Translations under genes and position numbers: made by a program
Notes under the pieces: generated by a model
Seen by the model: only the letters and a program-made list of their open reading frames with translations
Told to the model about the DNA's origin: nothing
Databases searched by the model: none
In this document: positions 2,876 through 33,379 of the stretch, in pieces
Position numbering within the stretch: position 1 is the stretch's first letter
Layout: each line of letters starts with the position of its first letter
Assembly (NCBI GenBank): GCA_030040935.1
Contig: JASHSG010000134.1
Coordinates: forward strand, 1 to 36,407
Reading direction: 5' to 3'
From: Acidobacteriaceae bacterium
Lineage (GTDB): Bacteria; Acidobacteriota; Terriglobia; Terriglobales; Acidobacteriaceae
Length of the DNA stretch: 36,407 nucleotides

Positions 2876-4258
2876 CTAGCTGGCGACGGAGGCGGCGCTG
2901 CGGCCGCGGCGGCGGGCAAGTGGCAGCGCTGTGAACCAGTAGAGCGGTGGCCCCAGTAGGGCGATCCCCGAGGCAAAAAGAAGAGATGAGACGTTGGCGA
3001 GGGCTGTGCCCGGATCACCCAGCTTCTCGCTCCGCGAGGCGTAGAGTGCGTACGCGATGAGGACGCTGGGGCCGATTGCGAGCAGGCAAACGAAGACAAA
3101 GTTGCCGGCACGGAACGGCCTCAGAAGCTGCGGCTCACGGACGCGAAGAGCTATAAGGGTGAGGAACTCAAGGATGAGACTCGTGCCGTAGAGAATGAGG
3201 TCGATGGAGATAAGGCGCTCGAAGGGAAGGCTGAGAGCGAGCGCCCAGCCCAGCCCGCAGAAGAGCACGCTAACCCAGGGAACACCGCGGCGGTTGCGGC
3301 GCTCGAAGATGCGCGGCAACATGCCATCGGCGGCCATGGCGATGGGCAGACGAGTATAGCTCATCATGAGCGCATTGAACATGCCAACGCCGCAGACGAC
3401 GCCTCCGGCAACGACAGCTATGGAAAGCGGAGTACCGCCGAGCTGGCCTGCGGCGACGGCCCACGAACCGGTGGTAAAGCCATCAGGCGAAAGTCCTCCC
3501 AAGGCCATTGCAGCAAGCGGCAGGACGTAAGTGATCGTTGTGATGATGGCAGCGCCAATGATTGCACGCGGGTAATTGCGCTGAGGGTGATCGACGTCGC
3601 GCGCGACGGTGGAGGCATTATCCCAGCCCATGTAGTTCCATAAACCAACGAGAATTGCGGTGGAGAGGCCCCCATCGGCATCGGACGGATGAGCGGGACG
3701 ACCCCATTCGATGGCAGGATGAAGTGTGAGGCCGCGCCAGAAGCCGAGAAAAACAAAGACAACAAAGGGCGCGAGGAGAAGCGCGGACATCCAAACAGAG
3801 TCTGCGCCGACGCGGGGCGCACCACGCAGGTTCCACGCGCAACATAAAACGACGACCGCCAGCGACCAGAGGTAATCACGCGGAGGGGTAGTTAGAGGGG
3901 AGCTGAATCTTCCCAGATAGAGGACAAAGATGCTGGGGTAGAGCGCCATGTCGAAAATGCTCGCCGAGAGCGAGAGCCAGCTTTCCTGGTAGCCCCAGAA
4001 GGACCCGAGGCCGCGACGCACCCAAATGTAAAAGCCGCCTTCATCGGGTATGGCGGCCGCGAGCTCGCCAATCATCAGAGCAGTTGGTAGGCTCCAGACG
4101 AGCGGTAGAACAAGCAGAATGGCGATGGCCCAGGCATAGCCGGCGCCACCGAGAACATCCTCCATCCCGTAAGGGCCTCCGGATACCATAAAAAAAGTAG
4201 CGGCGATGAGCGGCAGAAGGAGGAGCTTTCTGGGCGCGAAGTCAAAGATGGCGCGCAT
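2876..4258 (-). CDS. APC superfamily amino acid/polyamine permease
   Basis: 460 aa, about 12 hydrophobic segments; APC-like GGPYGMEDVLGGAGYAWAI, IPDEGGFYIWVRRGLGSFWGYQESWLS. Confidence 0.88.
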   Translation of the reverse strand: MRAIFDFAPRKLLLLPLIAATFFMVSGGPYGMEDVLGGAGYAWAIAILLVLPLVWSLPTALMIGELAAAIPDEGGFYIWVRRGLGSFWGYQESWLSLSASIFDMALYPSIFVLYLGRFSSPLTTPPRDYLWSLAVVVLCCAWNLRGAPRVGADSVWMSALLLAPFVVFVFLGFWRGLTLHPAIEWGRPAHPSDADGGLSTAILVGLWNYMGWDNASTVARDVDHPQRNYPRAIIGAAIITTITYVLPLAAMALGGLSPDGFTTGSWAVAAGQLGGTPLSIAVVAGGVVCGVGMFNALMMSYTRLPIAMAADGMLPRIFERRNRRGVPWVSVLFCGLGWALALSLPFERLISIDLILYGTSLILEFLTLIALRVREPQLLRPFRAGNFVFVCLLAIGPSVLIAYALYASRSEKLGDPGTALANVSSLLFASGIALLGPPLYWFTALPLARRRGRSAASVAS

Positions 4259-4334
4259 ACAAATGAATGTAACTGTGGGCGCGCGAAAGGGAAAGCGTCA
4301 CGAATGCGAGTTCCGGTATAATCCATTGAAGATC

Positions 4335-4427
<93 letters not shown>

Positions 4428-4745
4428 GAAAACTAGAATCAGCAACTTAGCGATCGTTTACCAGAGCTTCGGCTAAAGCTTATCCCATCGCCAGCTTCTC
4501 GGCATTTCGTAACGGAGAAGAAGCACGGGAAACTGTACCTCGTCGCTTTACATTGGACGGAACCTGACTTTCGGGAACCCTGAGCGGATGAACAACTTAG
4601 AGCTCTCATGCATCGAAGCTCAAGGCGCGTTCTCTAGATGTGAGGGGTCCAGTTCGATCGGACGGCGTGCACTGCGGCGGAAAAGCGCGAGCGTTGATCT
4701 TTTCGCGTTTACCAGGTGCTGCTAAACTATGATTTGCCACTCGAC

Positions 4746-4822
4746 AGGCGCGTAGCTCAGTTGGTTAGAGCGCTTCCTTGACACGGAAGAGGTCGTTGGT
4801 TCGAATCCAATCGTGCCTACCA
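4746..4822 (+). tRNA. tRNA-Val (anticodon GAC)
   Basis: Acceptor AGGCGCG/CGTGCCT, D-arm GCTCAGTTGGTTAGAGC, anticodon stem CTTCC/GGAAG with loop TTGACAC, T-loop TTCGAATC, encoded CCA. Confidence 0.96.
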
Positions 4823-4835
4823 ATCTCCTCTAACT

Positions 4836-5001
4836 TCAATTGATTAAAGGCTTTACCTCTTGATAAGGTGGCTCAGTCGGTGCCGAATGGTGCTGGTTTT
4901 TGTGCCCTATTTTCTCCTCGGGAAGCAGTAACGATGCAACTCTTGCATTCGCGTCCTTCTTGTGGCGAGAAACGGTCTGAGAGTAGAGCCTCAGCGTAGC
5001 G
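4836..5001 (-). pseudogene. Probable C-terminal remnant of a tyrosine-type phage/island integrase
   Basis: Reverse frame after the gadB stop reads [55 protein letters not shown]; resembles the post-catalytic-Tyr tail of tyrosine recombinases (TLxxYxxxVSxxKxxAxxKV); ends 13 nt from the tRNA-Val 3' end. Confidence 0.5.
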
Positions 5002-6399
5002 TTACCTGCCCGAATGATTGTGTGTACCGGATCCAGCGTCGGGTCGGAGAGCCCCGTGTGAGCGATGCTGCAAATGCTCAATGGTGCGTCCCATCTCAAG
5101 CAGAAGCTCCCGGGCCATTTCACGCGTGAAGCCGTGGCGAATGAGAATACGCTGGATGACGAGATCCTCGCGGTTGGGCGGCATGGAGTAAGCGGGAACG
5201 AGCCAGCCACGATCGCGCAATCGATCGGCGACGTCATAGAGCGTGAACGGCGTGCGTGCTGGGTCTCTAAGTTTCCAACAAACGCCCGGAATGCCGCCCA
5301 CGCCGTCATAGATGATTTCGAATGGTCCGAACGCGGCGATTTGGACGGCAAGCTCTCTGCCGATGTCCGAGCACTCGGATTGGATTCGGCGATAGCCTGC
5401 CTTGCCGAGGCGGAGGAAATTGTAATACTGGCAGATGATTTCGCCGCCGGGCCGCGAGAAGTTGAGCGCGAAGGTGGGAATGTTGCCGCCGAGATAATTG
5501 ACGTCGAAGATCAGCTCATCAGGCAGGTCAAGCTTTTCGCGCCAGAGCGCCCAGCCGACTCCCAGAGGCGCCAGCCCGAACTTGTGGCCTGAGGCATTGA
5601 TAGATCGGACGCGCGGCAAACGAAAATCCCAGAGCAAATTAGGCTCGAGAAAGGGTGCAAGAAAAGCGCCGCTCGCGCCGTCGACGTGAATCGGAATATC
5701 GAGGCCCGTCTCGGCGTGAAGCTTATCGAGGGCCATGCTGATCTCGTGGACGGGCTCGAATTGCAAAGTGAAGGTGACGCCCAGGGTGACGACAACGCCG
5801 ATAGTGTTTTCGTCGCAACGCTTCAACACTTCATCGGGCGTGAGCAAAAGGCGCTCGTTTTCCATGGGAACTTCGCGAATGTTGACATCGAAATAACGGC
5901 AGAACTTGTGCCAGCAGACCTGAACCGGGCCCATGACCAGGTTGGGGGAATCTGTTCGCTTGCCGAGGGCATTTTGCCGCTTGCGCCAGTTCCACTTCAT
6001 CGCCAGGCCTCCAAGCATCGCGGCTTCGCTGGAGCCTGTGGTGGAGCAGCCCATGGTGCTCGCTGATTCGGGGGAGTTCCAAAGATCGGCAAGCATGTGA
6101 ACGCAGCGCTCTTCTATCGCTGCGGTCTGTGGGTATTCATCCTTGTCGATCATGTTCTTGTCGGCCGATTCATCCATGAGGAGACCGACTTCGGGCTCGA
6201 TCCATGTAGTGCAGAAAGTGGCCAGATTGTGCTGGGAGTTTCCATCGAGAACGAGCTGCGCGTGGATCGTGCGATAGACGGCTTGCGGGTCGTGCGAGAT
6301 TTCAGGAAATATATACGTCTGGCCGCTGCGATGCAGAGCGTCCGATTCGATGGCATTCGTCGGGCGGGCGCTCAGTTGGCGAGTGTTGTGAAGTGGCAT
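5002..6399 (-). CDS. gadB: Glutamate decarboxylase (PLP-dependent, group II)
   Basis: 465 aa; [36 protein letters not shown] (PLP-Lys), [20 protein letters not shown]. Confidence 0.95.
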
Positions 6400-6465: not shown

Positions 6466-9400
6466 TTAATCTGAAGTTTTAACTCTAACTGCAAACAGCG
6501 AGTGCTGAGCGAGGATGAACAGCGTACCGCGGTCCGCGCCGCCGAAGATAATATCAATCGGACGCTCGGGGACATCGATTTGACCGATTAGTCTTCCCGC
6601 CGGGTTGTAGACGAAGATCTCCCCGTTGGCAACGTACACGTTGCCCTGGATGTCGACGGCGACGCTTTCACCGCCGCGCTCGGTGAAAGGCTGCAGACTG
6701 TGCAGCGTGCCGTCGGCAGCGACGCGCGCGTTATAGGTGCGGTCTTCCGATTCGCTGCTGACATAAATTCGCTGGCCCGGCAGAGCGGTGATGAAACCGT
6801 ACGTATCAAGATTGTCGGAGAATCGCCAGCCAGTGGAGTCGGGAGGACCCTGCTGAAAGACGCGTCCTGCGGGCAGGATGACGCTGCCATCGAGCGAGAC
6901 ATACTCCCTTGTTTTCGGCGTGGATACATCGTCCGCAAACATTTCGGCGAGCGACTTGTAAGTGAGCGTCGAGAAGTCGAGCTGGTTTCGGAATTCGCCG
7001 TTGTTCCAATAGTTGACCGGAAAAATCTCTGCGGCTCCTGGATGGGGGGCCGATGGCTCCGGCGTGAGAATCGAAATCTGATCCTCCGCCGAGCCGGGGC
7101 GGAATGAATAGACAGTTCCTTCCGGACCAGCAGAAGAGACCACGAGCAGGTTGCCCGATCTATCGAAAGCGAGATTGACCGGATCGAGAGCGTTGTCACG
7201 TTCGATGGTTAGACCTTCGGCAGCCGACCAGCCATAAATGCGCTGCTCGTGGTGATCGACAAAATATAGCTTGCCGGCAGCGTCGACTGCAGCGCCGGAG
7301 ATGAAGAAGAAGCCGTCTTCGAGTCTCTCAACCTTCGTGCTGGACGCGAGGATGGCGGAGGCATGGGTGGTGTGCGGGGCTGGCGGGTTCTCGGGAATAT
7401 CGAGCATTGCAAATTCGCGCTCGCGGACTTCAAGGTGATGCGTCATATCCTGAATTGCGTTTTCATAGGGATATTTGCTGGCGCGAAGATACGTGCCACA
7501 ACCATTGTCATCGCAGGTGGGATAGCCGCTTTCGGCATTGATGTGCACGTTGCGGAAGTGAATGTCTCCGGAATGATAAAGGCGAACCGCAGCCGGAAAG
7601 GACGCCCGAGATCGCGTTACGCGATAGCCGTGATAATTGGCGATAGTGATGTTGCGCGACCACCTGAATTCGAGCGATAACGATTCGGGACTTTCTCCGG
7701 CCTCTTCCTCGGTCTGAGGCGCGTTGACGTCCCAATTTTCGACGTGGTCGAATATGACTTCGTTACGCACGTGATGTTCGGTCGAAAGCTCGTAAACGTG
7801 GCCGGGAGTCTTCGTGTCTGAAACGTAAAAACCGGCTTGGGCGAAGGTGTCGGGAGTCCAGATGTCTGCGAACGTTCCGCCACCACCATGAGTGATCCAA
7901 AGGCTGGGGTATTGCCCGTCCCAGCGCTTCGCGAGTACGGAATCAGCGGTGTGATTATTGTTGTAGGGATTGAAGCCGGTGCCGTGGCCGCCGAGAAAAC
8001 GTACATCGTCGATGAGGGAACGTTCGCCGGATTGCCACAGCACGCCGACAGCGCGGGGGTTGATGCCGCCGGTGTAGACTCCGAAACCGCTGATGATGTT
8101 GGACCCGCCGACGGGCGACCTGATCACTGGCCGTGGCGCACCGACACCCTGAAATCCCGGCGCGGAATCATCGAGGTCGAATTGAGTCAGCGTGGGATGC
8201 AGGCCGATTAGAATTGTGTCATGCTTCAAGGTCAGCGTGTCGCTGACGCGGTAGTGGCCGCTGGGAAAATAGAGCACGCGATGCGCGGCGATGGCGTTCT
8301 GGATTGCCGATGTGTCGTCGGTGGTTCCATCGCCCACAACGCCGAGGTTGTGAACGTTGACCCATTCGGATGTGGGCGGCAGGGCCGGAATCGCAGGCGG
8401 AAGTGGGGCGGGAAGCGCGCTGAGCGCCACGGCATCGTAGCGCTGGCCGATTGCGCCGGTCATTCCTTCGCCCGGCACGATGAGCCCATAGTTGAAACTT
8501 CTCACCTGGTAGATCGCAGCCTTTGCGGGAATCGATTTTCCGCTTTCGCGAAAAAGAACGAATGTGGGGACATCGTCGAGCGTGGCGCTTTCAAAGCCGA
8601 TTTCAGTCAGCGGGCTTTTTTCATTGCTGATGATGACGGCGGCTTTTGCGACATGCTCGAAGCGGCAGTCTTTCGCCCACATCTCGTCGGAATAGTGCGG
8701 GTCAATGTCGATGGCCACAGGAAGGTTGCGGAAGGTGTCGCGGATGAGGGTGAGGCCTACTTCGTGCTCGCGAACCGCCGCCTCGCGCTGGCCGTCGAAG
8801 ACCGAATCGATCAGCGTGAATTGCCAGGCGGGAGAGGTTTTATCGGTCAGAATTCCGTAGCGGCCGCCGTAGAAATGGAGATCCTCGGCCTCGTTGCCGA
8901 CCTCTGTGAGCGCAGCCAGGCCGGAGCCGACATGAAAATCCATGTGGCTGAGATACGCATGCTGCGCGACATGAAAGCGAATGGCGATCGCGGCCGGGTT
9001 GCCATCGCCGATCTCGAAGTCGATGTTGCTGATCGCGGAATAGAAAGTGTCTTCGTCCGCGTCGGCCACATTGTCGTTGGGCGGCACGCTGCCGGGCGGA
9101 GGAAACGGAACGCGCCTGGCGGATCGCTGAATGGCGGCAGGGCTTGCGCCGGTGAACATGAGCATGACGCCTTCGCCGGATTGAAATCCCGGCGTGTTGT
9201 CAGCGAGCGCGAAAACGGGGCGCGTGGCGCCATAGCCGATGAGGCGCACGCCCGGCCAAAGATAGACGGTGCGCGTGATGCGGTAGCGACCGGAGGGGAC
9301 GAAGACAAGTCCCTCGCGAACGCCGCCTTCTGCTTTGTCGATTGCCGCCTGAATCGCCGCCGTGTCGTCTGCTGCGCCGTCGGCATGCGCGCCGAACTCC

Positions 9401-9516
9401 TGCGCGGTGAGATAGACGGCTTTCGGGTCGTCGAGCCGCGTTGTAAAGACGGAGGATGCCGAAGAGACAGAAGTGATGCCCAGCAAAAGCGCGGAGCACA
9501 GCAGAGCTTTCTTCAT
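6466..9516 (-). CDS. Secreted tandem pectate-lyase-3-like (right-handed beta-helix) protein with C-terminal propeller-like region
   Basis: Signal peptide; two units starting EFGAHADGAADDTAAIQAAID and NLGVVGDGTTDDTSAIQNAIA; C-terminal repeats AAGKLYFVDHHEQRIYGW, DIQGNVYVANGEIFVYNPAGRLI. Confidence 0.85.
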   Translation of the reverse strand: MKKALLCSALLLGITSVSSASSVFTTRLDDPKAVYLTAQEFGAHADGAADDTAAIQAAIDKAEGGVREGLVFVPSGRYRITRTVYLWPGVRLIGYGATRPVFALADNTPGFQSGEGVMLMFTGASPAAIQRSARRVPFPPPGSVPPNDNVADADEDTFYSAISNIDFEIGDGNPAAIAIRFHVAQHAYLSHMDFHVGSGLAALTEVGNEAEDLHFYGGRYGILTDKTSPAWQFTLIDSVFDGQREAAVREHEVGLTLIRDTFRNLPVAIDIDPHYSDEMWAKDCRFEHVAKAAVIISNEKSPLTEIGFESATLDDVPTFVLFRESGKSIPAKAAIYQVRSFNYGLIVPGEGMTGAIGQRYDAVALSALPAPLPPAIPALPPTSEWVNVHNLGVVGDGTTDDTSAIQNAIAAHRVLYFPSGHYRVSDTLTLKHDTILIGLHPTLTQFDLDDSAPGFQGVGAPRPVIRSPVGGSNIISGFGVYTGGINPRAVGVLWQSGERSLIDDVRFLGGHGTGFNPYNNNHTADSVLAKRWDGQYPSLWITHGGGGTFADIWTPDTFAQAGFYVSDTKTPGHVYELSTEHHVRNEVIFDHVENWDVNAPQTEEEAGESPESLSLEFRWSRNITIANYHGYRVTRSRASFPAAVRLYHSGDIHFRNVHINAESGYPTCDDNGCGTYLRASKYPYENAIQDMTHHLEVREREFAMLDIPENPPAPHTTHASAILASSTKVERLEDGFFFISGAAVDAAGKLYFVDHHEQRIYGWSAAEGLTIERDNALDPVNLAFDRSGNLLVVSSAGPEGTVYSFRPGSAEDQISILTPEPSAPHPGAAEIFPVNYWNNGEFRNQLDFSTLTYKSLAEMFADDVSTPKTREYVSLDGSVILPAGRVFQQGPPDSTGWRFSDNLDTYGFITALPGQRIYVSSESEDRTYNARVAADGTLHSLQPFTERGGESVAVDIQGNVYVANGEIFVYNPAGRLIGQIDVPERPIDIIFGGADRGTLFILAQHSLFAVRVKTSD

Positions 9517-9555
9517 GAGTGCGTTCCTTGCAAGCGTCTTGTTTTACGAGCGGCG

Positions 9556-10386
9556 CTACGAGCGCTCGGCGGCGTGGTACTCGCGGCGAATGCGCCCGAT
9601 GTTGACCGTCGGTTTCGGATACTTCATGCGCAGCGATTCCAGGTGCTCGACAACGATGCGCGCGATGGCGAGATTGCGGAACCACTTGTGATTCGATGGA
9701 ATGATGAACCACGGCGATTGGGACGTGCTGCAACGGGAGAGCGCTTCTTCATACGCCGCGATGTAATCCTTCCAAAACGCGCGTTCCTTGTAGTCGGCTT
9801 CGCTGATTTTCCAATGCTTGGTGGGGTCGTCGAGGCGCTCCTTGAAGCGCTTCAGTTGTTCTTCCTTCGAAATGTGCAGAAAGAACTTGAGAATGTGGGT
9901 CTGGTGCGCGACCAGCTCCTTCTCAAAGCTGTTGATCTGATCGTAACGGCGGGACCAGACGTCCTTGGGAACGAGATTATGAACCCGCACCACGAGGACG
10001 TCCTCGTAATGCGAGCGGTTGAAGATGACGACTTCGCCGCAAGCGGGTGCGGCTTTGTGTGCGCGCCACAGAAAATCGTGTGCAGCCTCTTCGGCAGAGG
10101 GTTGTTTGAAAGGCGCGACACGGCAGCCCTGCGGGTTCATGGCGCCGAGAACATGGTTGATGACACCGTCTTTGCCGCCGGTGTCGACGGCCTGCAGGCA
10201 GATGAGGAGAGAGTGCCGGTGCTCGGCGTAGAGCTGGTCTTGCAATTCGCGGAGCTTGTTCTGATAGTGCTCGACCTCATCGGCCACAGACCTTGGGCTT
10301 TTGTGGCCGCCTGTGAACGATGGGTCAAAATCTCTGAGCTTAACCTTGCTTTCCGGCTCGACTTTGAGTTTTTTCAGGTAACTCAT
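9556..10386 (-). CDS. ppk2: Polyphosphate kinase 2 family protein (PPK2)
   Basis: 276 aa; Walker-A-like QAVDTGGKDGVINHV, FNRSHYEDVLVVRVHNL, STSQSPWFIIPSNHKWFRN. Confidence 0.93.
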   Translation of the reverse strand: MSYLKKLKVEPESKVKLRDFDPSFTGGHKSPRSVADEVEHYQNKLRELQDQLYAEHRHSLLICLQAVDTGGKDGVINHVLGAMNPQGCRVAPFKQPSAEEAAHDFLWRAHKAAPACGEVVIFNRSHYEDVLVVRVHNLVPKDVWSRRYDQINSFEKELVAHQTHILKFFLHISKEEQLKRFKERLDDPTKHWKISEADYKERAFWKDYIAAYEEALSRCSTSQSPWFIIPSNHKWFRNLAIARIVVEHLESLRMKYPKPTVNIGRIRREYHAAERS

Positions 10387-10532
10387 TTCGGTTCTCCACT
10401 ATGAGAATCGCGTTTCCGGCTGATCGAAACCGCAGGCATGCGCGAGGCGGGTTGGCTCTGCAAATGCTGGCAGGCAAAGCAACACTCGTGACGGCAACAG
10501 AAGAAATGCTAACAGCCCGGGAAGCCTGGCAG

Positions 10533-10688: not shown

Positions 10689-13058
10689 GTGGAAGCGACC
10701 CTATCGCCGGATTTATTGCAGAATATGGATGCCTACTGGAGAGCGTCAAATTATCTCTCAGTTGGCCAGATTTATCTCTATGACAACCCATTGCTCAAGC
10801 GCCCGCTTGAGATCGGGGATGTGAAGCAAATGCTTCTCGGCCACTGGGGAACGACCCCAGGGCAGAACTTCATTTATACGCATTTGAATCGAATAATCAA
10901 GAAATACGATCTCGACATGATTTACGTTTCCGGCCCCGGACATGGAGGTCCGGCTGTGGTGAGCCACACCTACTTAGAGGGAACTTACACCGAAATCTAT
11001 CCCGATATTAGCCGAGACGAAGAGGGTCTTAGGAAGCTATTCATTCAGTTTTCATTTCCAGGCGGTATTCCGAGCCACGCATCGCCGGAAACTCCAGGAT
11101 CGATCCACGAGGGAGGTGAGCTGGGCTATTCGCTCAGCCATTCGTTCGGCGCAGTGATGGACAATCGAGAGTTGATTGTGGCGTGCGTCGTGGGTGATGG
11201 AGAGGCGGAGACCGGACCACTGGCGACTGCATGGCACTCGAACAAGTTTATCGATGCTGCCTCTGATGGGGCGGTGCTACCGATTCTACATCTGAATGGT
11301 TACAAGATCGCGAATCCTACTGTACTCGCGCGCATTTCGCACGAGGAGTTGGAGCAATTGTTCCACGGCTACGGCTGGCAGCCCTATTTTGTGGAGGGGC
11401 ACGAGCCGGCGCCAATGCACGAGGCGATGGCGACGGCACTCGATCGCGCGGTGGAGGAGATCAGGAAAATTCAGCGGCGCGCTCGCGTCCACGGGAACAC
11501 GGAGCGCGCGAGATGGCCGATGATCGTGCTCAACTCTCCCAAGGGGTGGACGGGGCCGAAGGTTGTCGATGGATTGCAAGTGGAAGGAACATTCCGCTCG
11601 CATCAGGTGCCGTTGTCGGATCCCCGAACAAATCCAAAGCACCTGAAGCAACTGGAGGAATGGCTGAAAAGCTATCGGGCGGAAGAGCTCTTCGACGATG
11701 GAGGCCAGCTGCGGCCAGAACTGGCGGAGCTTGCGCCGGTTGGCGCTCGACGGATGGGGTCCAATCCTCATGCCAATGGTGGAATTTTCTTGCGCGACTT
11801 GAGGATGCCCGATTTTCGAGACTATGGCACGAACGTGCCTGCGGCCGGGTCGCCAGGCATCGGGGACACGCGCGTGCTTGCCCCGTTTCTGCGCGATGTG
11901 GTGAAGCTGAATGCGGAACCAAGGATCTTCAGAATCTTCGGACCCGATGAAACCATCTCCAACGGGCTGAAGGCAGTATTCGAAACGACCAATCGACAAT
12001 GGGATGCGGAGATGATGGCCAACGACGAGTTTCTTGCACCCGAGGGACGCGTGATGGAGATGCTGAGCGAACATCAGTGCGAAGGATGGCTGGAGGGATA
12101 TCTGCTTACCGGGCGTCATGGGTTATTCAATTGCTATGAGGCGTTCATTCATATTGTCGACTCCATGTTCAACCAGCATGCCAAATGGCTTAAGGTAACA
12201 AACGGGCTGCCGTGGAGACGAAAGATCTCTTCTCTCAATTACCTGCTGGCGTCGCACGTATGGCGACAGGATCACAACGGATTTACACACCAGGATCCGG
12301 GATTCATCGATCACGTGGTAAATAAGAAAGCCGAGGTTGTGCGTGTATATCTTCCGCCCGATGCCAATTGCCTTCTTTCGGTAATGGACCACTGCCTGCG
12401 CAGCCAGCAATACGTCAACGTTGTGGTTGCGGGGAAACATCCTGCGCCGCAGTGGCTGACCATGGACGCGGCGATCAAACACTGTACAGAGGGCATCGGC
12501 ATCTGGCAATGGGCCAGCAACGATCAGGGAGGTGCGCCCGACGCAGTGATGGCTTGTTGCGGCGACGTGCCCACGCTGGAGACGCTGGCCGCGGTGAGCA
12601 TTCTACGCGAGCATTTGCCTGAGCTAAAACTGCGGGTAGTGAACGTCGTCGACCTGATGAAACTGCAGCCGCAAACAGAGCATCCGCACGGACTGAGCGA
12701 CGCGGATTTTGACACGCTCTTCACAAAAGATAAGCCGGTGATCTTCGCATTCCACGCCTATCCGTGGCTAATCCACCGCCTCACTTACCGCCGCGCCAAC
12801 CACAACAACATTCATGTGCGCGGCTACAAGGAGGAGGGAACCATCACAACACCATTTGACATGACAGTGATGAACGACCTGGACCGCTTTCACCTGGCCA
12901 TGGACACAATTGACCGCATTCCGCGTATTTGGGAGAAGGGCGCATACCTGAAACAGACGCTCAAAGACAAATTGGTGGAACACAAGCAATACATCAGAAA
13001 AAATGGAATGGACCTTCCTGAGGTTCGAGACTGGAAGTGGAAGAGCCCCCAGGGTTAA
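10689..13058 (+). CDS. xfp: Xylulose-5-phosphate/fructose-6-phosphate phosphoketolase
   Basis: 789 aa with GTG start; [117 protein letters not shown]. Confidence 0.97.
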
Positions 13059-16519: not shown

Positions 16520-18016
16520 CTAACGGGCGAGAGCCTGAATTTGCGACGCGACAAAATCATGGACAAACATCAGGCTGGTGGGAGATGACACTGTTGCCGC
16601 GCTGGTTTGTCCTGCTGCGTGAATAATGAGCAAAGGGCGCGGATCCCACTCTCCACCATGAGAAACACGCTCGTCTTCGGCGCTCCATCCAGGAGTTGTA
16701 CGCCAGATCTTCGTGCGCCAGGAATGATCTCCCTGAACAATCAGGGTCGTTTCGGGCCAGCGCGGCTGCGACTCAAGGACGTCGAGTATCTGGCCCAGGA
16801 AGCGATCGGCATAATCCAGCGAGTCGAGATAGGAACCACCAACGCCGAAGTTCTGCGCGCGACGATCCCAAAAGGCAGGCGGATGAGGCACGGGGAGGTG
16901 AAGATAGATAACATCCGCTTCGCTGTTAGCCAGCGCTGCGAGGGCGTGCTGACTCATGTCCTTCACCGTCGCCACATGGCTCAGCGATTCCCAGTGAGCG
17001 ACGTCAGTCACGGCAGCGCGGGGTGCAACAAGTTGCTCGAGGGCGATGCGCAGTGGGAACCAGACGTCTTCAGCAAAACTGGCATTGATTGAAGGCGGAG
17101 CGCCGTCCTCAGTGTCGTCGTTGCTCCAATAGCACTCGGTGGCTGTACCTACGAAGACCGGGCAATAAGCCAAATACCAGCCGACGATTGAAGTCGAAAC
17201 GCCGCGCTGCCTAGCCAGGCCGAACAACGATGCGCTCGAGTCAAAAGGTTCCCAATGTGTATCGTCAGCCGTCCGAACCATGAGCTGATTTTCCGGGGTA
17301 AAGGTGGAACTGGTTACGATACGGCCTAGGAGCAAACTCGGCACAACCAGGTTGGTGTGATATCCAATCGGCGTCACATCGGTGTAAACCGTACTTTGCA
17401 GGCGTAACCGATCGAAGTTGGGAAGATCGAGCGAGCGCTCGCGAACCTCGAACACCGGCCTAAATGCCAACTCGTCGAAGATGATCCACACCGTGCGGGG
17501 TTTGCCGGCGGGCTGGGCAGGAATTGGGTTCGCAAATGCCTGAATGCCGGGGCGCCAGAATGCGGCGCTTATCAGTTGAGCGGTCATGACGAGTGCAAAC
17601 ACTACAGCACCGGTGAGCACGGCAACGCCGACGCGATAGAGTTTCAGCGCAAGACCAGGAGCGCGAATAACAAGAAACGCGAGAACAGCGACCCACCCGG
17701 CGGCGGCTATGGCAACGGAGGAATACGGAACGCGAAATGGAAGGATTCTGAGATTACAAACAAGCAGGTAGATGGGAAGCAAGGCCAAGGCGAACCACCG
17801 GATTCGCGGCCATGACTTTAGGTTGCGAAGGATCGCCAGCAAACCCGCGAAAACCAGGCCCGCAATCGAAAGATCGGCAAGCTGCGCAAGAACTAACCGG
17901 GTAAGCGGCCAGGGAACGCGCATTCGTTCGTCGCCCAGAGTTGAGGTGAGGTCAACATAGCCTGGGAGAAGGAGAATGGCTGCAAAGCCCCAAGCTTGGG
18001 CAATGCGCTTAATCAT
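16520..18016 (-). CDS. Membrane-anchored alkaline phosphatase/sulfatase superfamily protein
   Basis: N-terminal TM helices, then VWIIFDELAFRPVF...LDLPNFDRLRLQSTVYTDVTPIGYHTNLVVPSLLLGR ... TTLIVQGDHSWRTKIW, sulfatase-like metal-site pattern. Confidence 0.78.
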   Translation of the reverse strand: MIKRIAQAWGFAAILLLPGYVDLTSTLGDERMRVPWPLTRLVLAQLADLSIAGLVFAGLLAILRNLKSWPRIRWFALALLPIYLLVCNLRILPFRVPYSSVAIAAAGWVAVLAFLVIRAPGLALKLYRVGVAVLTGAVVFALVMTAQLISAAFWRPGIQAFANPIPAQPAGKPRTVWIIFDELAFRPVFEVRERSLDLPNFDRLRLQSTVYTDVTPIGYHTNLVVPSLLLGRIVTSSTFTPENQLMVRTADDTHWEPFDSSASLFGLARQRGVSTSIVGWYLAYCPVFVGTATECYWSNDDTEDGAPPSINASFAEDVWFPLRIALEQLVAPRAAVTDVAHWESLSHVATVKDMSQHALAALANSEADVIYLHLPVPHPPAFWDRRAQNFGVGGSYLDSLDYADRFLGQILDVLESQPRWPETTLIVQGDHSWRTKIWRTTPGWSAEDERVSHGGEWDPRPLLIIHAAGQTSAATVSSPTSLMFVHDFVASQIQALAR

Positions 18017-19515
18017 TCCGTACCCTCGCTCACGCGTTGAAATTCAGCGACAACGCCCGTGCTGTTCTGGCCCAAACGCCGGTCAAGGAGGAGAAGAGCG
18101 CGCCTGTTACCCAGCTGGAAGCGGTCCACCACCGCAAAATGCGGTGCGAATGCAAAGGTGAGATCAACCTCGGTTAAGTGCCCATAGAGATCGTCGCGGC
18201 CACGCAGCCACTCCTGAAACATGGGGTCAGCTGGCGGGACCCATTCCAAGAGCAGCCAACGGCGCGTAAGGCCGGCACAGAGGCCGGCGATGTGAGTGAG
18301 CGGTAGCTGATGGCGCAGGATTAGGTGATGAATGACAGCGAGCATCAAAACCAGGTCAAATTGGCCGGTCAGGCGGTCGAGAAGGGAGAGATGCTCACGA
18401 TTGCGCCATCCTGCAGCTGGTGTCGGTCGGGCGATGTCCGCGACCAGAGCAGTAATCGGCCTATTCTGATTAGAGGCAGCACGCCAGAGCTTCTCGAGAG
18501 CCGTGGCGTCGCTGTCGAGCGCGACAACCTTCGCGCCGGCATCGGCAGCGAGCAACGAATAGGTGCCGGCATTCGCGCCGATATCGAGGACACCTTCGGG
18601 CTGACATCGGGCGAGCACGCTCTTGACGAATTGTTTCTTTTCTTCAACGTCAACGGGCTGATAGTGGCCAGCTGTTTGCTCGTACTCGCTCCATTGGCTT
18701 TGGCCGCCATCGCCGGCGGCGTGACGAATCTGCTTGCCGAGACGCGCGATCCGCTTTTGGAGAACGTGCTTGGCAAGAGCAGCATCGGTGATGGAGGAAG
18801 TCCTTTTCGGCACGGCATTCTGCCGCTCCGGACGCTCAAAGACTGTGGCCAGCGTGACAACGTCAAGCAGATTGGGATTCAGCCTACGCCAGCGCGGCAA
18901 CGCTTCATAGATCTGGCGCGGCTCATAGCCGTCTCGCGCAAACAGGGTTGTGTAGAGGGGCCAGCTTAAATACTTTGCCGCCACAAGAGGCAGCAGAAAC
19001 GTGCGCACGAATTGGCCATAAGCCAGCCAAACACTGGAATGAGGGTCGCGGCGCTCGAAGGACAAAACATCCACGAGAATTGGACGCGGACCGGAGAAGA
19101 GGATGTTGAGCGGCGTCGCATCCTTCAGGTTCCAGCCGGAGTCAAGCGCCCGGCTGGCAACGCGCAGAGTGAGTTCAGCGGCAGCGCGCCACTGCCCGGT
19201 GGTCCACTCCCACGGATAGCTGATGGGATCGATGCGTGGATGTTCAAGCCAAAGCTCGCCAGAAGCGATGCATTGATGCGCAGCAGGCTCAGCGATTCGG
19301 CTGGGAACCAGATCGCCACTTTGTTCAAGCGCCTTGCACAGTGGTGAGGTGAGAAACGCTCGGGTACCTTCCTCGGCCGCCGGGCGAATCCGCCGCAAAG
19401 CTGAACCCAGTGCGAGCCGGAGCTCGCCAGCCGGATCGCGAAAGGTCAATTCCAGTTCAGTGTCTACGGCTGGGAGCGCCGACTCCCCGTGAAAAGACCT
19501 CTCGGGCTCGCTCAC
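18013..19515 (-). CDS. Class I SAM-dependent methyltransferase with N-terminal kinase-like region
   Basis: C-terminal Rossmann motif VLDIGANAGTYSLLAADAGAKVVALDSD and FDLVLMLAVIHHL; N-terminal LKDATPLNILFSGPRPILVDVLSFERRDPHSSVWLAYGQFVRTFLLPL. GTG start overlaps upstream stop by 4 nt. Confidence 0.85.
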   Translation of the reverse strand: MSEPERSFHGESALPAVDTELELTFRDPAGELRLALGSALRRIRPAAEEGTRAFLTSPLCKALEQSGDLVPSRIAEPAAHQCIASGELWLEHPRIDPISYPWEWTTGQWRAAAELTLRVASRALDSGWNLKDATPLNILFSGPRPILVDVLSFERRDPHSSVWLAYGQFVRTFLLPLVAAKYLSWPLYTTLFARDGYEPRQIYEALPRWRRLNPNLLDVVTLATVFERPERQNAVPKRTSSITDAALAKHVLQKRIARLGKQIRHAAGDGGQSQWSEYEQTAGHYQPVDVEEKKQFVKSVLARCQPEGVLDIGANAGTYSLLAADAGAKVVALDSDATALEKLWRAASNQNRPITALVADIARPTPAAGWRNREHLSLLDRLTGQFDLVLMLAVIHHLILRHQLPLTHIAGLCAGLTRRWLLLEWVPPADPMFQEWLRGRDDLYGHLTEVDLTFAFAPHFAVVDRFQLGNRRALLLLDRRLGQNSTGVVAEFQRVSEGTE

Positions 19516-19775
19516 GGATTTGGCGATTCCTCACCTTCGGCGGTCACGTGCCGCTCATCCGATTCGCGCGCGGGATCGTCGCCAGAACGGAAGAGCGAAT
19601 AGATCTTCCGGCGCAGGTACCACCCGGTGGCAACCAATGCGGACCCTGCGGCCTGAACTGCCAAGAGCCCTGTGCCGGGGTCGGCATAACCGTATGCGGA
19701 GCGCTCACACACCAACAGCGCACCCACGAGAATCAAGACAACGGGAAGAATCTGAAGCAGTTTCACGCGGCTCAC
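19512..19775 (-). CDS. Small membrane protein with YADPGTG motif (87 aa)
   Basis: GTG start with upstream GGAG; VSRVKLLQILPVVLILVGALLVCERSAYGYADPGTGLLAVQAAGSALVATGWYLRRKIYSLFRSG; two hydrophobic segments; 4-nt overlap with next gene. Confidence 0.75.
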   Translation of the reverse strand: MSRVKLLQILPVVLILVGALLVCERSAYGYADPGTGLLAVQAAGSALVATGWYLRRKIYSLFRSGDDPARESDERHVTAEGEESPNP

Positions 19776-19973
19776 AGGCGACTCCAAGATGGGATGGCAG
19801 TTTCGTTCTGATACTCGACGAACGGAGATCCAAACTCGAAATCGAGCAGCCATCTGATATTGAATAGACGGCCAAGTCCGCGTCCGCGTTTACAGAATCG
19901 CAAACATTCTACCCTGAAAGAAATGTAACTTTTGAATGAGTTGAATCTTTTTGTGAAATACCACTTTCGCGCC

Positions 19974-24792: not shown

Positions 24793-25656
24793 CTATTTGC
24801 CTTTCGGCCTTTCGATGGGATTGGTTTCGTGAAGCACCGTTCTGCGTACAAGCCTGTACCTGCCGTCTTTGAAGGAATAGATCTCGGTCCAATTCTCTGG
24901 TTTCACGGGGTGGTTGTAGTCCGGCATTGACGACCCTCGGGAGATAACCTCGATGTCGTAATAGGTGCTATTAGCCCTATTGACATCTTTAGGCGCAAAG
25001 AATCGAATAGCGGCCGATGAGTGATAGAGCGGAGGGTTATTACTCTTATCGTCTGGGTCGATAGCATCGAAATCGTCGTCCTCGTCCTGAATGCTCCAAA
25101 CATTTTCGACGCTCTTTCCGATGGGGATCAGCAGTACCTTAAATGACGACGAGAACCCTTGGCCCTCGTCGTCCGAAGACAGAAGCAGTCCATGCTTGTC
25201 TGGACCAACCTGAATGAAATTGACGGACGGTGGGTCTCCCCAACCGCCCAAGAATCCTGCCGAAATGTTTGCGCTCTCTGTGATCCATCGCTGGTCTTGC
25301 CAAACGAAAACAGCTACGCCGATCGCGGGGGCGCAGGCGTGGCAGTTGTATTCTCCTTCCGGGTCATGCGCAGGTTTTGCGCTCGTGAAGAGGTAAACTC
25401 GGTCGGCTTCATCCTCGACGACCCGAGCGGTGAGGATGGTCGAAACCGAAACGGTTTCGTTCTCTTTGGTGCATGGCCAGCCAGCGTGCATTCCTTTCGA
25501 TTGTTGCTCTTTCGTGCAAAGCCACTGGGCGGTTTTGTCTGCCGGATTGTAGTTGTGATAGAGCTGTTTCAATGCATCATCGGTCGAAAACGACGCCTGG
25601 GCAGGCAGACGAACTGATGCCAAGACAATGAGAATGCATAGGAGAGGGGCTTTCAT
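24793..25656 (-). CDS. Secreted hypothetical protein
   Basis: MKAPLLCILIVLASVRLPAQASFSTDDALKQLYHNYNPADKTAQWLCTKEQ...; signal peptide; start trimmed from ORF at 25683. Confidence 0.7.
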   Translation of the reverse strand: MKAPLLCILIVLASVRLPAQASFSTDDALKQLYHNYNPADKTAQWLCTKEQQSKGMHAGWPCTKENETVSVSTILTARVVEDEADRVYLFTSAKPAHDPEGEYNCHACAPAIGVAVFVWQDQRWITESANISAGFLGGWGDPPSVNFIQVGPDKHGLLLSSDDEGQGFSSSFKVLLIPIGKSVENVWSIQDEDDDFDAIDPDDKSNNPPLYHSSAAIRFFAPKDVNRANSTYYDIEVISRGSSMPDYNHPVKPENWTEIYSFKDGRYRLVRRTVLHETNPIERPKGK

Positions 25657-25699
25657 TTTGCAGACCGTCCCGCCGACTGTCACCAGCGCGCAAAAATCG

Positions 25700-30042: not shown

Positions 30043-30297
30043 ATGTCAGATCGAAAGGTTCGCCGATGGCGCCTCGCAGCCGCTTCGCCGGCGCTGCCGG
30101 CGACGCTTCTCCCTTTGAATGGCTATGCGGCTGAGTCCGCCAAGCTCAGTGCTCCTGAAGCGCCCCGCGCAGAATGGGCCGCCGAGGCAATTGTCAATCT
30201 CAGGCACGTGGTCGCTGGCATCACGATTGCGCTCGTGATTGAAGGTGCGATCGCGTTCGCAATCATTGCCACCTGGAATCTCTGGCACATTCGCTAG
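30043..30297 (+). CDS. Small putative membrane protein (84 aa)
   Basis: Single C-terminal hydrophobic helix HVVAGITIALVIEGAIAFAIIATWNLWHIR; G-rich RBS-like sequence (CGGGGG) before ATG. Confidence 0.4.
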   Translation: MSDRKVRRWRLAAASPALPATLLPLNGYAAESAKLSAPEAPRAEWAAEAIVNLRHVVAGITIALVIEGAIAFAIIATWNLWHIR

Positions 30298-30424
30298 CCA
30301 GCGTAGATCACCAGCTAAAGTCTCAGACTGCCGCGAGACAGGCGCTTTCGCGCTCGACTCAATCGCTTCCTTCCACTTCCGTGGAGTTTTCCTGAAGCTC
30401 CTGGTCCGAAGCAATCGTCATGCC

Positions 30425-31099
30425 CTAGCCATCAACCGGATACTGTGGATCGAACGGAAAGACGATTTCCGCCACAGTCGCAACCGCCTTGCCATTCACC
30501 GTCGCCGGCTGAAATCGCCACGTCTTCACCGTGTCCAGCACAATCTGGTCGAGGCGATTCCCCAAGCCTTTCATCAGGGCTTCGCTGACGACGGCACCCT
30601 CTTCATCCACCTTCACATCCACCACAATCTTCATCTCGACCGGCGGCAAGAGCGCGCCATCGGTTACAGTCGGCCTGGGCGCGAATATGGGAAACGCGGG
30701 CCTCGCATTTTGGTTGTCGATCCCATTCCCATTCGCAGCGCTGCCGCGTCCCTCGCCGGCTCGCGGTGTCGAGGGAGCGCCGCCCCCCGCATCGTTTTGC
30801 GGGCGCAGCTGTCTCATCGTCAGCGCAGGGGGGACGGCCGCATCCGCGTACCGCTCCGGCTTTTCCACATCCGCCGCGGTCTGCCTGGCTGGCAGGGGAA
30901 CTTTAACCGCATGCGCCCCGCCCGCAACTTCAAGCGCTGCGACGGTCACATCGTCAGAACTCTCCCGGAGCCTGAATCCGGCCAGCGCGCCCATCAGAAC
31001 TACCAGCGCCAGCCCGCACAGGTGAACCGCCAGCGACATCGCGACGATCCGCAGTTCGCGCGCGGCGTGATTTCTATCAATTCGCAACTGGCTCCTCAC
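30425..31099 (-). CDS. tonB: Energy transducer TonB family protein
   Basis: N-terminal TM helix, Pro-rich linker, TonB C-terminal MKIVVDVKVDEEGAVVSEALMKGLGNRLDQIVLDTVKTWRFQPATVNGKAVATVAEIVFPFDP. Confidence 0.85.
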   Translation of the reverse strand: MRSQLRIDRNHAARELRIVAMSLAVHLCGLALVVLMGALAGFRLRESSDDVTVAALEVAGGAHAVKVPLPARQTAADVEKPERYADAAVPPALTMRQLRPQNDAGGGAPSTPRAGEGRGSAANGNGIDNQNARPAFPIFAPRPTVTDGALLPPVEMKIVVDVKVDEEGAVVSEALMKGLGNRLDQIVLDTVKTWRFQPATVNGKAVATVAEIVFPFDPQYPVDG

Positions 31100-31181
31100 A
31101 TGGGCAACGAACGATCGGTGCGATTATTTTCGCACAGATCCGATTCCGTCATCATCGACCCGTTGCGGCGCGGATGGAGCA

Positions 31182-31754
31182 ATGAAATGGAGTAAATTGA
31201 AGGTTTACAGGATGCTCCAGTCGACCGAAAAATCGAGCCTCGCGGGCGGCCTAGAAATGTTTCATACCGAAACGGGCCGATCGCTACTCGACCTCGTAGA
31301 TGAATCGCCCGTATTGCTTATCTTTCTTCGCCATTTTGCCTGTGCATTTTGCGCGCAGACTCTGGACCGGGTCTCCCAGTTGCTGCCGCAAATCGCGGCC
31401 AAGGGAGTGCGGCCTGTATTCGTCCATCTCGGCTCTCGTGAGCGCGCAAAACCCTATTTCGACTACTACAATTTGTCCGACATTGAAAGGATCAGCAATC
31501 CCGATGCTACTCTCTATCGGCTTCCCGCCTTTGGCTTGTCGCGCACCAACCCTTATCTGCACTTTTTCAATCTCACTGTCTGGAAGGGCTGGCTCAAGGG
31601 CGCGATGTTCAAGTACGGAATCGGCATGATCAAGGAAGACGCGGAGCAGATGCCAGGAGTCTTCTTCCTGAAGGACCGGAAGATTGTGCGCGCTTTTCGC
31701 CATCGCACAATAGCCGATGAGCCGGACTACCTGAAGCTGATCGGTGCGGGGTAA
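31182..31754 (+). CDS. Peroxiredoxin-like / SelL-related redox protein
   Basis: VLLIFLRHFACAFCAQTLDRVSQLLPQIAAKGVRPVFVHLG...NPDATLYRLPAFG, thioredoxin-like fold with CxxC. Confidence 0.8.
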   Translation: MKWSKLKVYRMLQSTEKSSLAGGLEMFHTETGRSLLDLVDESPVLLIFLRHFACAFCAQTLDRVSQLLPQIAAKGVRPVFVHLGSRERAKPYFDYYNLSDIERISNPDATLYRLPAFGLSRTNPYLHFFNLTVWKGWLKGAMFKYGIGMIKEDAEQMPGVFFLKDRKIVRAFRHRTIADEPDYLKLIGAG

Positions 31755-31776: not shown

Positions 31777-33123
31777 TCACCGAGAGCCGGGCGCAGGGAG
31801 CGGCACAGGCAGCTGAAACACCTGAATGGCGCCCGCATCGACGATGGCCACGCGCTGCCCTGACGGCGAAATTGCAACATTGCCGCCGCCATCGAACATC
31901 GGCGTCGAAGGCGACTCCAGCACGATCTTGCCATCGGCCGCATCAAAGACCTTGACCACCTGACCTTGAAAATCCCGCGCGCCGATCAAGCGCTTATAAC
32001 GGTCGACGGGATGCTTAAGGAGGAGCGTTTCCCGCGCCACGCGCGAACCGTTTGGCGCAATGACCAGCAGCGGAAAGATCGCATTCATGGCGATCCTCGA
32101 CTCCCAAAGCGAAACGCCGTAGCTCAACATCGCCCTGAGTATCCATCCATTTTGCGGATCGCACGCGCTAAGCAGCAATTCCGTTTCGGAGAGAAAGCCA
32201 TACTGCGGAGAGCATGTCGACTCGACGCGAGCCAGCTCTCTCTCACCGCCCGAAAAGCCAATCAGCTTGAGAAGCCATCGATTGGCTCCGTCTCGCGAAT
32301 CCTCAACATAACCTTCGGAATTCATAGGCCAATCTGAGGCCTGAGATGTCCACTGCGTCCGACTGACGAGCATCACCTGGCCCGATGCGACCTTGGCGGT
32401 GCGCGCGACAAGAACGCTTGGCTCGCCGAGCTTACGTTGATCAGTTGCCGCCGCCGGCGGCTCTGTAACGATTGGTCCCGAGTGGTTGGGCAGCTGCGAT
32501 AAACTTGCGGGCTCGAGCGCGTTGGTGATCATCACCTGTTTTCCGGGATCCATCTCGATCCAGAGCAGCCGGCCCGGGAGACGCAAGTACGGTTTCATCT
32601 GCAGCTGCTCATCTCCTTCATCCAGTCCATCAGGAACACGCAGCAAGAAATGTCGATTGTTGAGCATCCATAAGTAGCGCGAACGATCAGGCACGATCCA
32701 AGTGGCCCGGGACTCGACTTTGCCGCTCGAAAGCGACAGCACGAGAGCCTGAATCTGTTGCTTTTTGTCACCTGAATTTTCATCGGCATCGCGCTGCAAG
32801 AGCCCCGACACCCGAAAAGTGAATAGAATTCGATCTTCGTCGAGGAAATCAAGGCTCACCAGGCTCTGGTGGCGCAGAAAGTAGTTCTTCCCGGGAATGG
32901 AAAAGCCCAGCGGGCCTAGACCAATCGTGAAAGAGGGCGGCGAGCTGGGATTGTCTGGATACCTTTCAAAGATCCTTGGCGGCGGGCCGACGCCGGACGG
33001 CATCGGAGGAAGCCGGAAACCGGACTGCGCGCGGACGCAGGATCCGCCGGCCAGCAGGAGGCACAAAGCCGATAAACCTGAGAGAATGCGCACTTGACCA
33101 ACGATGAATTCAATCTCCGGCAT
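31777..33123 (-). CDS. Secreted hypothetical protein, WD40/beta-propeller-like
   Basis: MPEIEFIVGQVRILSGLSALCLLLAGGSCVRAQSG...; C-terminal VKVFDAADGKIVLESPSTPMFDGGGNVAISPSGQRVAIVDAGAIQVFQLP. Start uncertain. Confidence 0.7.
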   Translation of the reverse strand: MPEIEFIVGQVRILSGLSALCLLLAGGSCVRAQSGFRLPPMPSGVGPPPRIFERYPDNPSSPPSFTIGLGPLGFSIPGKNYFLRHQSLVSLDFLDEDRILFTFRVSGLLQRDADENSGDKKQQIQALVLSLSSGKVESRATWIVPDRSRYLWMLNNRHFLLRVPDGLDEGDEQLQMKPYLRLPGRLLWIEMDPGKQVMITNALEPASLSQLPNHSGPIVTEPPAAATDQRKLGEPSVLVARTAKVASGQVMLVSRTQWTSQASDWPMNSEGYVEDSRDGANRWLLKLIGFSGGERELARVESTCSPQYGFLSETELLLSACDPQNGWILRAMLSYGVSLWESRIAMNAIFPLLVIAPNGSRVARETLLLKHPVDRYKRLIGARDFQGQVVKVFDAADGKIVLESPSTPMFDGGGNVAISPSGQRVAIVDAGAIQVFQLPVPLPAPGSR

Positions 33124-33379
33124 GCCTGGCGCGCGAAGAGGGGGACGCTTCGTAAGCACTGTTATACGCCCTTAAAACGGACTATGTTTTTGCGGCAGGC
33201 GCGGACGGAGTTCGCGGCTATTCATTCCACCCGTGAAACAGAGACGAGTCTCCACATGCACGAATCGGGATCGGGCGCCTCACGGACCGCCTTGAGGAGC
33301 CGATCGTGAGCAGAGCCGGGATCCAGGTTCCACCTTTGGGGAACAGCGGAGGCGGGCTCAAGTCGCATAAAATCATAGA

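Follow-up and report, generated by a model that had tools for sequence, protein, structure and literature searches.

A predicted noeA-noeB-type operon in an Acidobacteriaceae bacterium and the pairing of NoeA-family proteins with a small YxDPGTGS membrane protein

Three overlapping genes and their surroundings

The analyzed stretch of DNA (36,407 nucleotides, contig JASHSG010000134.1 of an Acidobacteriaceae bacterium, in the following called the window) carries three genes on the minus strand, and the 4-nt overlaps at both junctions lie exactly where the original prediction had placed them (GTGA at 19512..19515 between the small gene and the noeA-like gene, ATGA at 18013..18016 between the noeA-like gene and the AlkP gene). 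The first gene (19512..19775, minus strand, GTG start) encodes an 87-aa membrane protein, which was assigned to the YxDPGTGS family on the basis of its open reading frame and a match to profile A10 (2.5e-15). An alternative reading of 113 aa would begin with an ATG at 19853, but we prefer the GTG at 19775 because the SD-like sequence TTGGAG is located about 8 nt upstream of it. The second gene (18013..19515, minus strand, GTG start) encodes a 500-aa protein of the NoeA/Lani_1194 family with a kinase-like and a class I methyltransferase part, as judged from Pfam, homology and an AF2 model with a pLDDT of 89. The third gene (16520..18016, minus strand, ATG start) encodes a 498-aa membrane protein of the AlkP superfamily and takes the position of noeB. 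The starts of genes 2 and 3 are preceded by GAGG and GAGGG, respectively. Downstream of the trio a convergent GH3 gene ends at 16487, and infC and an mtaB-like radical-SAM gene are located upstream. Judging from the open reading frames of the window and their Pfam matches, the trio is not part of a recognisable cluster for glycan biosynthesis, and neither nodL nor a nod box was seen at the operon.

Elsewhere in the window, two long open reading frames overlap on opposite strands. The one at 6466-9516 (minus) contains pectate-lyase-like and SGL domains and the one at 8221-10404 (plus) has no Pfam match, therefore the latter is probably spurious. Open reading frames of 300-460 aa at 31777-33159 (minus), 30239-31195 (plus) and 24793-25683 (minus) also lack a Pfam match. 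An amino-acid permease gene is found beside a pyridoxal-dependent decarboxylase gene at 2876-6399, possibly an acid-resistance pair based on amino-acid decarboxylation, and the XFP gene (xylulose-5-phosphate/fructose-6-phosphate phosphoketolase) at 10689-13058 is complete.

The NoeA-family protein

By sequence comparison the middle protein was shown to be a full-length homologue of NoeA and a member of the NoeA family. Direct comparison with NoeA of Sinorhizobium meliloti gave 27% identity over 461 aa (4e-44) covering both domains, and a tblastn search against plasmids likewise returned full-length matches of S. meliloti noeA to gene 2. The original prediction of a SAM methyltransferase with an extra N-terminal domain held up well, as gene 2 matches PF08242 (2.7e-07) and related methyltransferase families, and no Pfam family covers its first 235 residues. 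The class I methyltransferase domain comprises about residues 278-480 (18076..18684, minus strand) and is supported by Pfam, by PDB profiles including WbdD and by Foldseek. Among the PDB profiles this domain matches WbdD best (5.9e-5), and a Foldseek search with full-length NoeA returned only matches to the methyltransferase part, with WbdD at rank 3. No membrane segment is evident in the AF2 model of NoeA (pLDDT 89).

The N-terminal domain (about residues 24-235; 18811..19446, minus strand) is kinase-like. All of the 45 highly diverged NoeA-family sequences compared share R41, D132, N137 and D149, where R41 takes the position of K72 in PKA, and D132-x4-N137 together with D149 correspond to D166, N171 and D184. 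In the AF2 model of NoeA a helix (106-125) is followed by a strand (128-130), the D/N loop, two further strands (138-141 and 144-147) and D149, and this modelled order of residues and secondary structure fits a kinase C-lobe. This is in line with a survey in Legionella, in which the kinase assignment was likewise reached for the N-terminal domain of the homologue Lani_1194, with an arginine instead of the usual beta-3 lysine and an ion-pair (alpha-C) glutamate that was not identified (PMC9758233). Comparison of the N-terminal domain with APH kinases by hhalign gave a motif-register alignment, which is not significant (probability 0.8%). Both the exchanged lysine together with the elusive glutamate of Lani_1194 (PMC9758233) and the insignificant APH match would suit a pseudokinase that only binds nucleotides or serves as a scaffold, so that NoeA would merely methylate a glycan or lipid. 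We regard this reading as rather doubtful, because an invariant set of D132, N137 and D149 across such diverged sequences is unusual for dead kinases. A kinase-like domain that is active and fused to the methyltransferase is the reading that we prefer in the following.

The small YxDPGTGS protein and its pairing with NoeA

The small protein is tiny, mostly without annotation across genomes, and the copy in the window has no model at cut-off in Pfam and NCBIfam. It fits the YxDPGTGS family in its motif, in one TM segment, in a tail that is first basic and then acidic, and in the presence of a noeA gene, which is adjacent or in the same genome. It had been described as a protein with two TM helices; the size and the YADPGTG motif at residues 30-36 (19668..19688, minus strand) stand, whereas the protein may rather consist of a signal peptide and one TM segment, because the motif comes straight after AYG, which resembles a signal peptidase I site. 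The second hydrophobic stretch is moderately hydrophobic in this copy (peak 1.27). Where the N-terminal extension is 14 residues or longer (61 copies), alanine or glycine immediately precedes the tyrosine of the motif in 52 copies and an A-x-A pattern precedes the motif in 29, and 13 of 74 small proteins have almost no N-terminal extension (e.g., MYLDPGSGS in L122). Therefore, hydropathy, site pattern and charge suggest for the mature or minimal protein an N-terminal Y-x-D-P-G-[TS]-G-S on the outside, a single passage through the membrane and a cytoplasmic tail, first basic and then acidic, which is the part with the least conservation. The motif itself varies (YLDPASGS, YIDAGTGS, YLDGGSGS and YIGAGTGS).

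The pairing was assessed in a sample of 199 Acidobacteriota genomes, where full-length relatives with E below 1e-18 were scored as NoeA and profile matches below E 1e-7 as small protein. Both proteins are present in the same 38 genomes and both are missing in the other 161, as comparison of the lists by hand revealed; an exact 38/38 overlap by chance would have a probability of 1/C(199,38), or about 1e-41, if shared ancestry is ignored. Five of these genomes (G094, G103, G155, G163 and G028) have the two genes on separate contigs or at a large distance from each other. Among 201 Chloroflexota genomes all 25 NoeA carriers also have the small protein, and in one further genome (G243) the small protein occurs without NoeA. 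The match score of the latter is similarly low as that of a second, diverged paralogue of the small protein (MYIDPGSGGMLFQ...), which is found away from NoeA in some Chloroflexota (L237:7057-7242 of genome G199; G279).

A recount with the profile placed the small gene directly upstream of NoeA at 96 of 113 non-redundant loci and within 2 kb at 10 more. One of the remaining loci is at a contig end, and six (L032, L033, L034, L063, L056 and L128) have the small gene elsewhere in the genome, so that all 112 judgeable loci are accompanied by a small protein, nearby or elsewhere in the genome. Genomes which seemed to lack a small neighbour were searched as a whole and all have one, mostly adjacent. 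In 1.43 Mb of loci a plain motif regex had picked up 84 short ORFs with the motif, of which 83 are genuine and near NoeA and one is spurious (L047); as a counter it was abandoned, since it undercounts because of the motif variants. As the profile was trained on NoeA-linked copies, it may miss some of the small proteins that occur without NoeA, and the statement that every NoeA has a small protein is free of this bias. In the family of the window bacterium, four genomes (G094, G155, G163 and G103) carry NoeA without either neighbour and have small-protein and AlkP relatives elsewhere; in G103 and G028 the small gene has an AlkP gene as its neighbour, at a distance from NoeA. In several relatives within this family, NoeA is found alone between nadD and rsfS (L032-L034 and L063) and the full trio occupies the same gap in L035, showing loss, gain or relocation of both partners at one site.

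The original prediction had proposed a dedicated envelope-modification module, and the search across phyla revealed co-occurrence far beyond close relatives, which is near absolute for NoeA and the small protein. According to labels that mostly stem from metagenome bins, so that individual assignments may be wrong, NoeA loci are found in Chloroflexota, Zixibacteria, Omnitrophota, Krumholzibacteriota, Deltaproteobacteria-type bins, Armatimonadota, Planctomycetota, Bacteroidota, Gammaproteobacteria, Riflebacteria and candidate phyla such as Daviesbacteria and Saccharibacteria, and archaea have also been listed among the holders of the family (PMC9758233). Because of its presence in Chloroflexota, candidate-phylum bacteria and archaea (PMC9758233), LPS as the only substrate is unlikely, and the distribution argues for a more general substrate of the module, be it a glycan or a lipid. 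A Pfam tally of the neighbours across loci showed scattered glycosyltransferases, topA and others, with no single glycan pathway. Thus the proposed module is real, dedicated and conserved, and its wide distribution fits a role at the envelope or on glycans with the small protein as a membrane partner, which may act as the proposed substrate adaptor; the sulfate chemistry that was part of the proposal did not stand.

The same arrangement can be recognised in the nodulation genes of S. meliloti. On pSymA of strain ml47 the order is nodL, an unnamed 71-aa ORF, noeA and noeB, and the 71-aa ORF reads ...IVPAHA-YLDPGTGSMLVQ..., carries YLDPGTGS and by its sequence belongs to the same family as gene 1 of the window. 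In S. meliloti 1021 the 71-aa ORF is located at about 419091-419303 of NC_003037. ORFs of this type occur on 61 rhizobial plasmids, which equals the number of rhizobial plasmid records with noeA. Because of the NoeA homology and the YLDPGTGS ORF between nodL and noeA, we classify the trio, on sequence grounds, as a noeA-noeB-type operon. The nod-box n5 operon agrees with the window in the order of small gene, NoeA and AlkP, in the overlap of the small gene with noeA, in YLDPGTGS and in a NoeA of 27% identity, but differs by nodL and the nod box, and the window bacterium is not known to make Nod factors. NoeA is required for host-specific nodulation. The description of the nodL-noeA-noeB operon goes back to Ardourel 1995, as cited in PMC9758233, PMC9048898 and PMC4053727, and noeA and noeB are regarded as host-range genes for which Nod factor modification has been hypothesised (PMC9048898). 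A second described system is Lani_1193-1194-1195 of Legionella, which has a kinase-methyltransferase of the same family and an AlkP-fold neighbour, but was read as possible effectors (PMC9758233). That survey covered 816 neighbourhoods, and neighbours of Lani_1194 are conserved in 65% and 38% of them (PMC9758233). From position and frequency we infer that Lani_1193, the neighbour found in 65%, corresponds to the YxDPGTGS protein. The trio had been put forward as a candidate for an undescribed system, which is contradicted by both operons (PMC9758233): the operon type is real, widespread and already described, and what appears to be new is how strictly the small protein is paired with NoeA. This pairing and the unnamed small ORF of the nod-box n5 operon are the aspects that deserve further attention.

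Co-occurrence strongly supports the small protein as an obligate partner of NoeA. We consider it probable that the YxDPGTGS micro-protein is the unrecognised obligate partner of all NoeA-type kinase-methyltransferases in many phyla and hence an overlooked fourth gene of the nod-box n5 operon, which would be needed for NoeA at the membrane. The strict one-to-one pairing, the small size and the conserved N-terminal motif also resemble a modifier and its substrate, in which case NoeA would phosphorylate or methylate the peptide and the AlkP protein would process it. We assume that this is unlikely, as the motif is predicted to be extracytoplasmic and NoeA has neither an export signal nor a TM segment, and the tail, which would be within reach of NoeA, shows the least conservation.

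The AlkP-superfamily protein and a possible modification module

Gene 3 matches PF00884 (Sulfatase, 1.2e-11), and the AF2 secondary structure predicts five N-terminal membrane helices within residues 1-153 (17558..18016, minus strand; helices 2-24, 38-63, 69-88, 98-118 and 120-153), followed by the AlkP domain. The multi-TM AlkP fold of the original prediction could thus be recovered, in contrast to the sulfate chemistry implied by the term sulfatase-like. The PF00884 match, which is found in 37 of 44 AlkP members scanned individually, and sulfatases as the best Foldseek and profile matches would be expected from a sulfate-handling envelope module with a true sulfatase. On the other hand, Thr221 at the nucleophile position (17354..17356, minus strand) is invariant in all 44 relatives, together with D181, H373, H378 and D430 (H431 in 40/44), and the C-x-P-x-R formylglycine signature was found near this position in none of the 44. 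Therefore, a true sulfatase identity was rejected and a sulfate-handling module is highly improbable; these residues and the five TM helices suggest a phosphotransferase or phosphodiesterase, and phosphoester chemistry is likelier than sulfate chemistry. LtaS and EptA have five TM helices and an AlkP domain on the outer face of the membrane. Gene 3 resembles them in the five helices, the AlkP domain, the Thr nucleophile and the Asp-His metal ligands, but is very distant in sequence, and sulfatases outscore both (E 1.8e-7 and 2.9e-5 for LtaS and EptA).

An AlkP-superfamily gene follows directly downstream of NoeA in the window, as is the case for noeB. The window protein and NoeB share 21% identity over 112 aa only, and an AlkP profile built without NoeB retrieves NoeB at 1e-24; both have only superfamily and position in common, and gene 3 is at most a putative orthologue of NoeB. 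Some loci have much longer AlkP partners of about 985-1030 aa with extra regions (L039:6526-9492, L127 and L223). The AlkP gene is directly downstream of NoeA in 46 of 96 loci with sufficient sequence and within 2.5 kb in 63 of 96. Of the 199 Acidobacteriota genomes, 22 have a close relative of the AlkP protein (E below about 1e-38), and 19 of these are NoeA-positive. With the genomes used for profile training left out, 10 of 29 NoeA-positive genomes have the gene versus 3 of 161 NoeA-negative ones (p 3e-7). The AlkP protein is thus common as a third member but optional; the small protein is regarded as obligate, since it co-occurs even when unlinked. That the trio is a set of unrelated neighbours on one transcript, as the adjacent housekeeping genes infC and mtaB might suggest, is hardly credible given the conservation in many phyla and the AlkP enrichment, and for the small protein and NoeA it is already refuted by co-occurrence of unlinked genes.

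The best explanation of these data, which we hold with about even confidence, is a NoeA-NoeB-type module for the modification of glycans or glycolipids that is membrane-anchored and works like WbdD. In E. coli O9a, WbdD adds a phosphate and subsequently a methyl group to the end of a glycan carried on a lipid, and its C-terminal part is a coiled coil (PMC3482155). It resembles NoeA in that a kinase and a SAM methyltransferase are combined in one protein at a membrane-bound glycan, and its methyltransferase is the closest solved structure, but the order is methyltransferase, kinase and coiled coil, whereas NoeA has the reversed order, no coiled coil and an N-terminal domain without sequence match. 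Lcin_0519, a member of a different family, has also been likened to WbdD and was even so termed remote (PMC9758233). In the mechanism that we infer, from the chemistry of NoeA and its substrate class to the topology of the small protein, NoeA would be a cytoplasmic two-step enzyme, which at the inner membrane would first phosphorylate and then methylate a glycolipid or lipid-linked glycan, in analogy to WbdD. The small protein would be its bitopic anchor or partner in the membrane, because NoeA has no membrane segment of its own and its strict partner is predicted to have a cytoplasmic basic tail. The YxDPGTGS motif would be exposed outside after removal of the signal peptide, or as the bare N-terminus in the short forms, the single TM segment would follow, and the basic amphipathic tail would hold NoeA on the inside. 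Where present, the five-TM AlkP protein would act on the product at the outer face as a phosphotransferase or phosphodiesterase with a threonine nucleophile.

S. meliloti could have recruited such a general module for its nodulation signals, and the nodulation genes would then be one branch of a module that is also present in bacteria not known for Nod factors. NoeA and NoeB have been known as host-range genes since 1995 (Ardourel et al., cited in PMC9758233). That NoeA is almost always paired, genome-wide, with a peptide of about 60-90 aa, which is also located between nodL and noeA, predicts a missing subunit, and the small protein is probably an overlooked essential partner of NoeA. This question is directly testable in a genetically tractable symbiont. 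S. meliloti M162, which has a truncated noeA, formed no nodules on 17 out of 27 genotypes of M. truncatula (PMC4053727).
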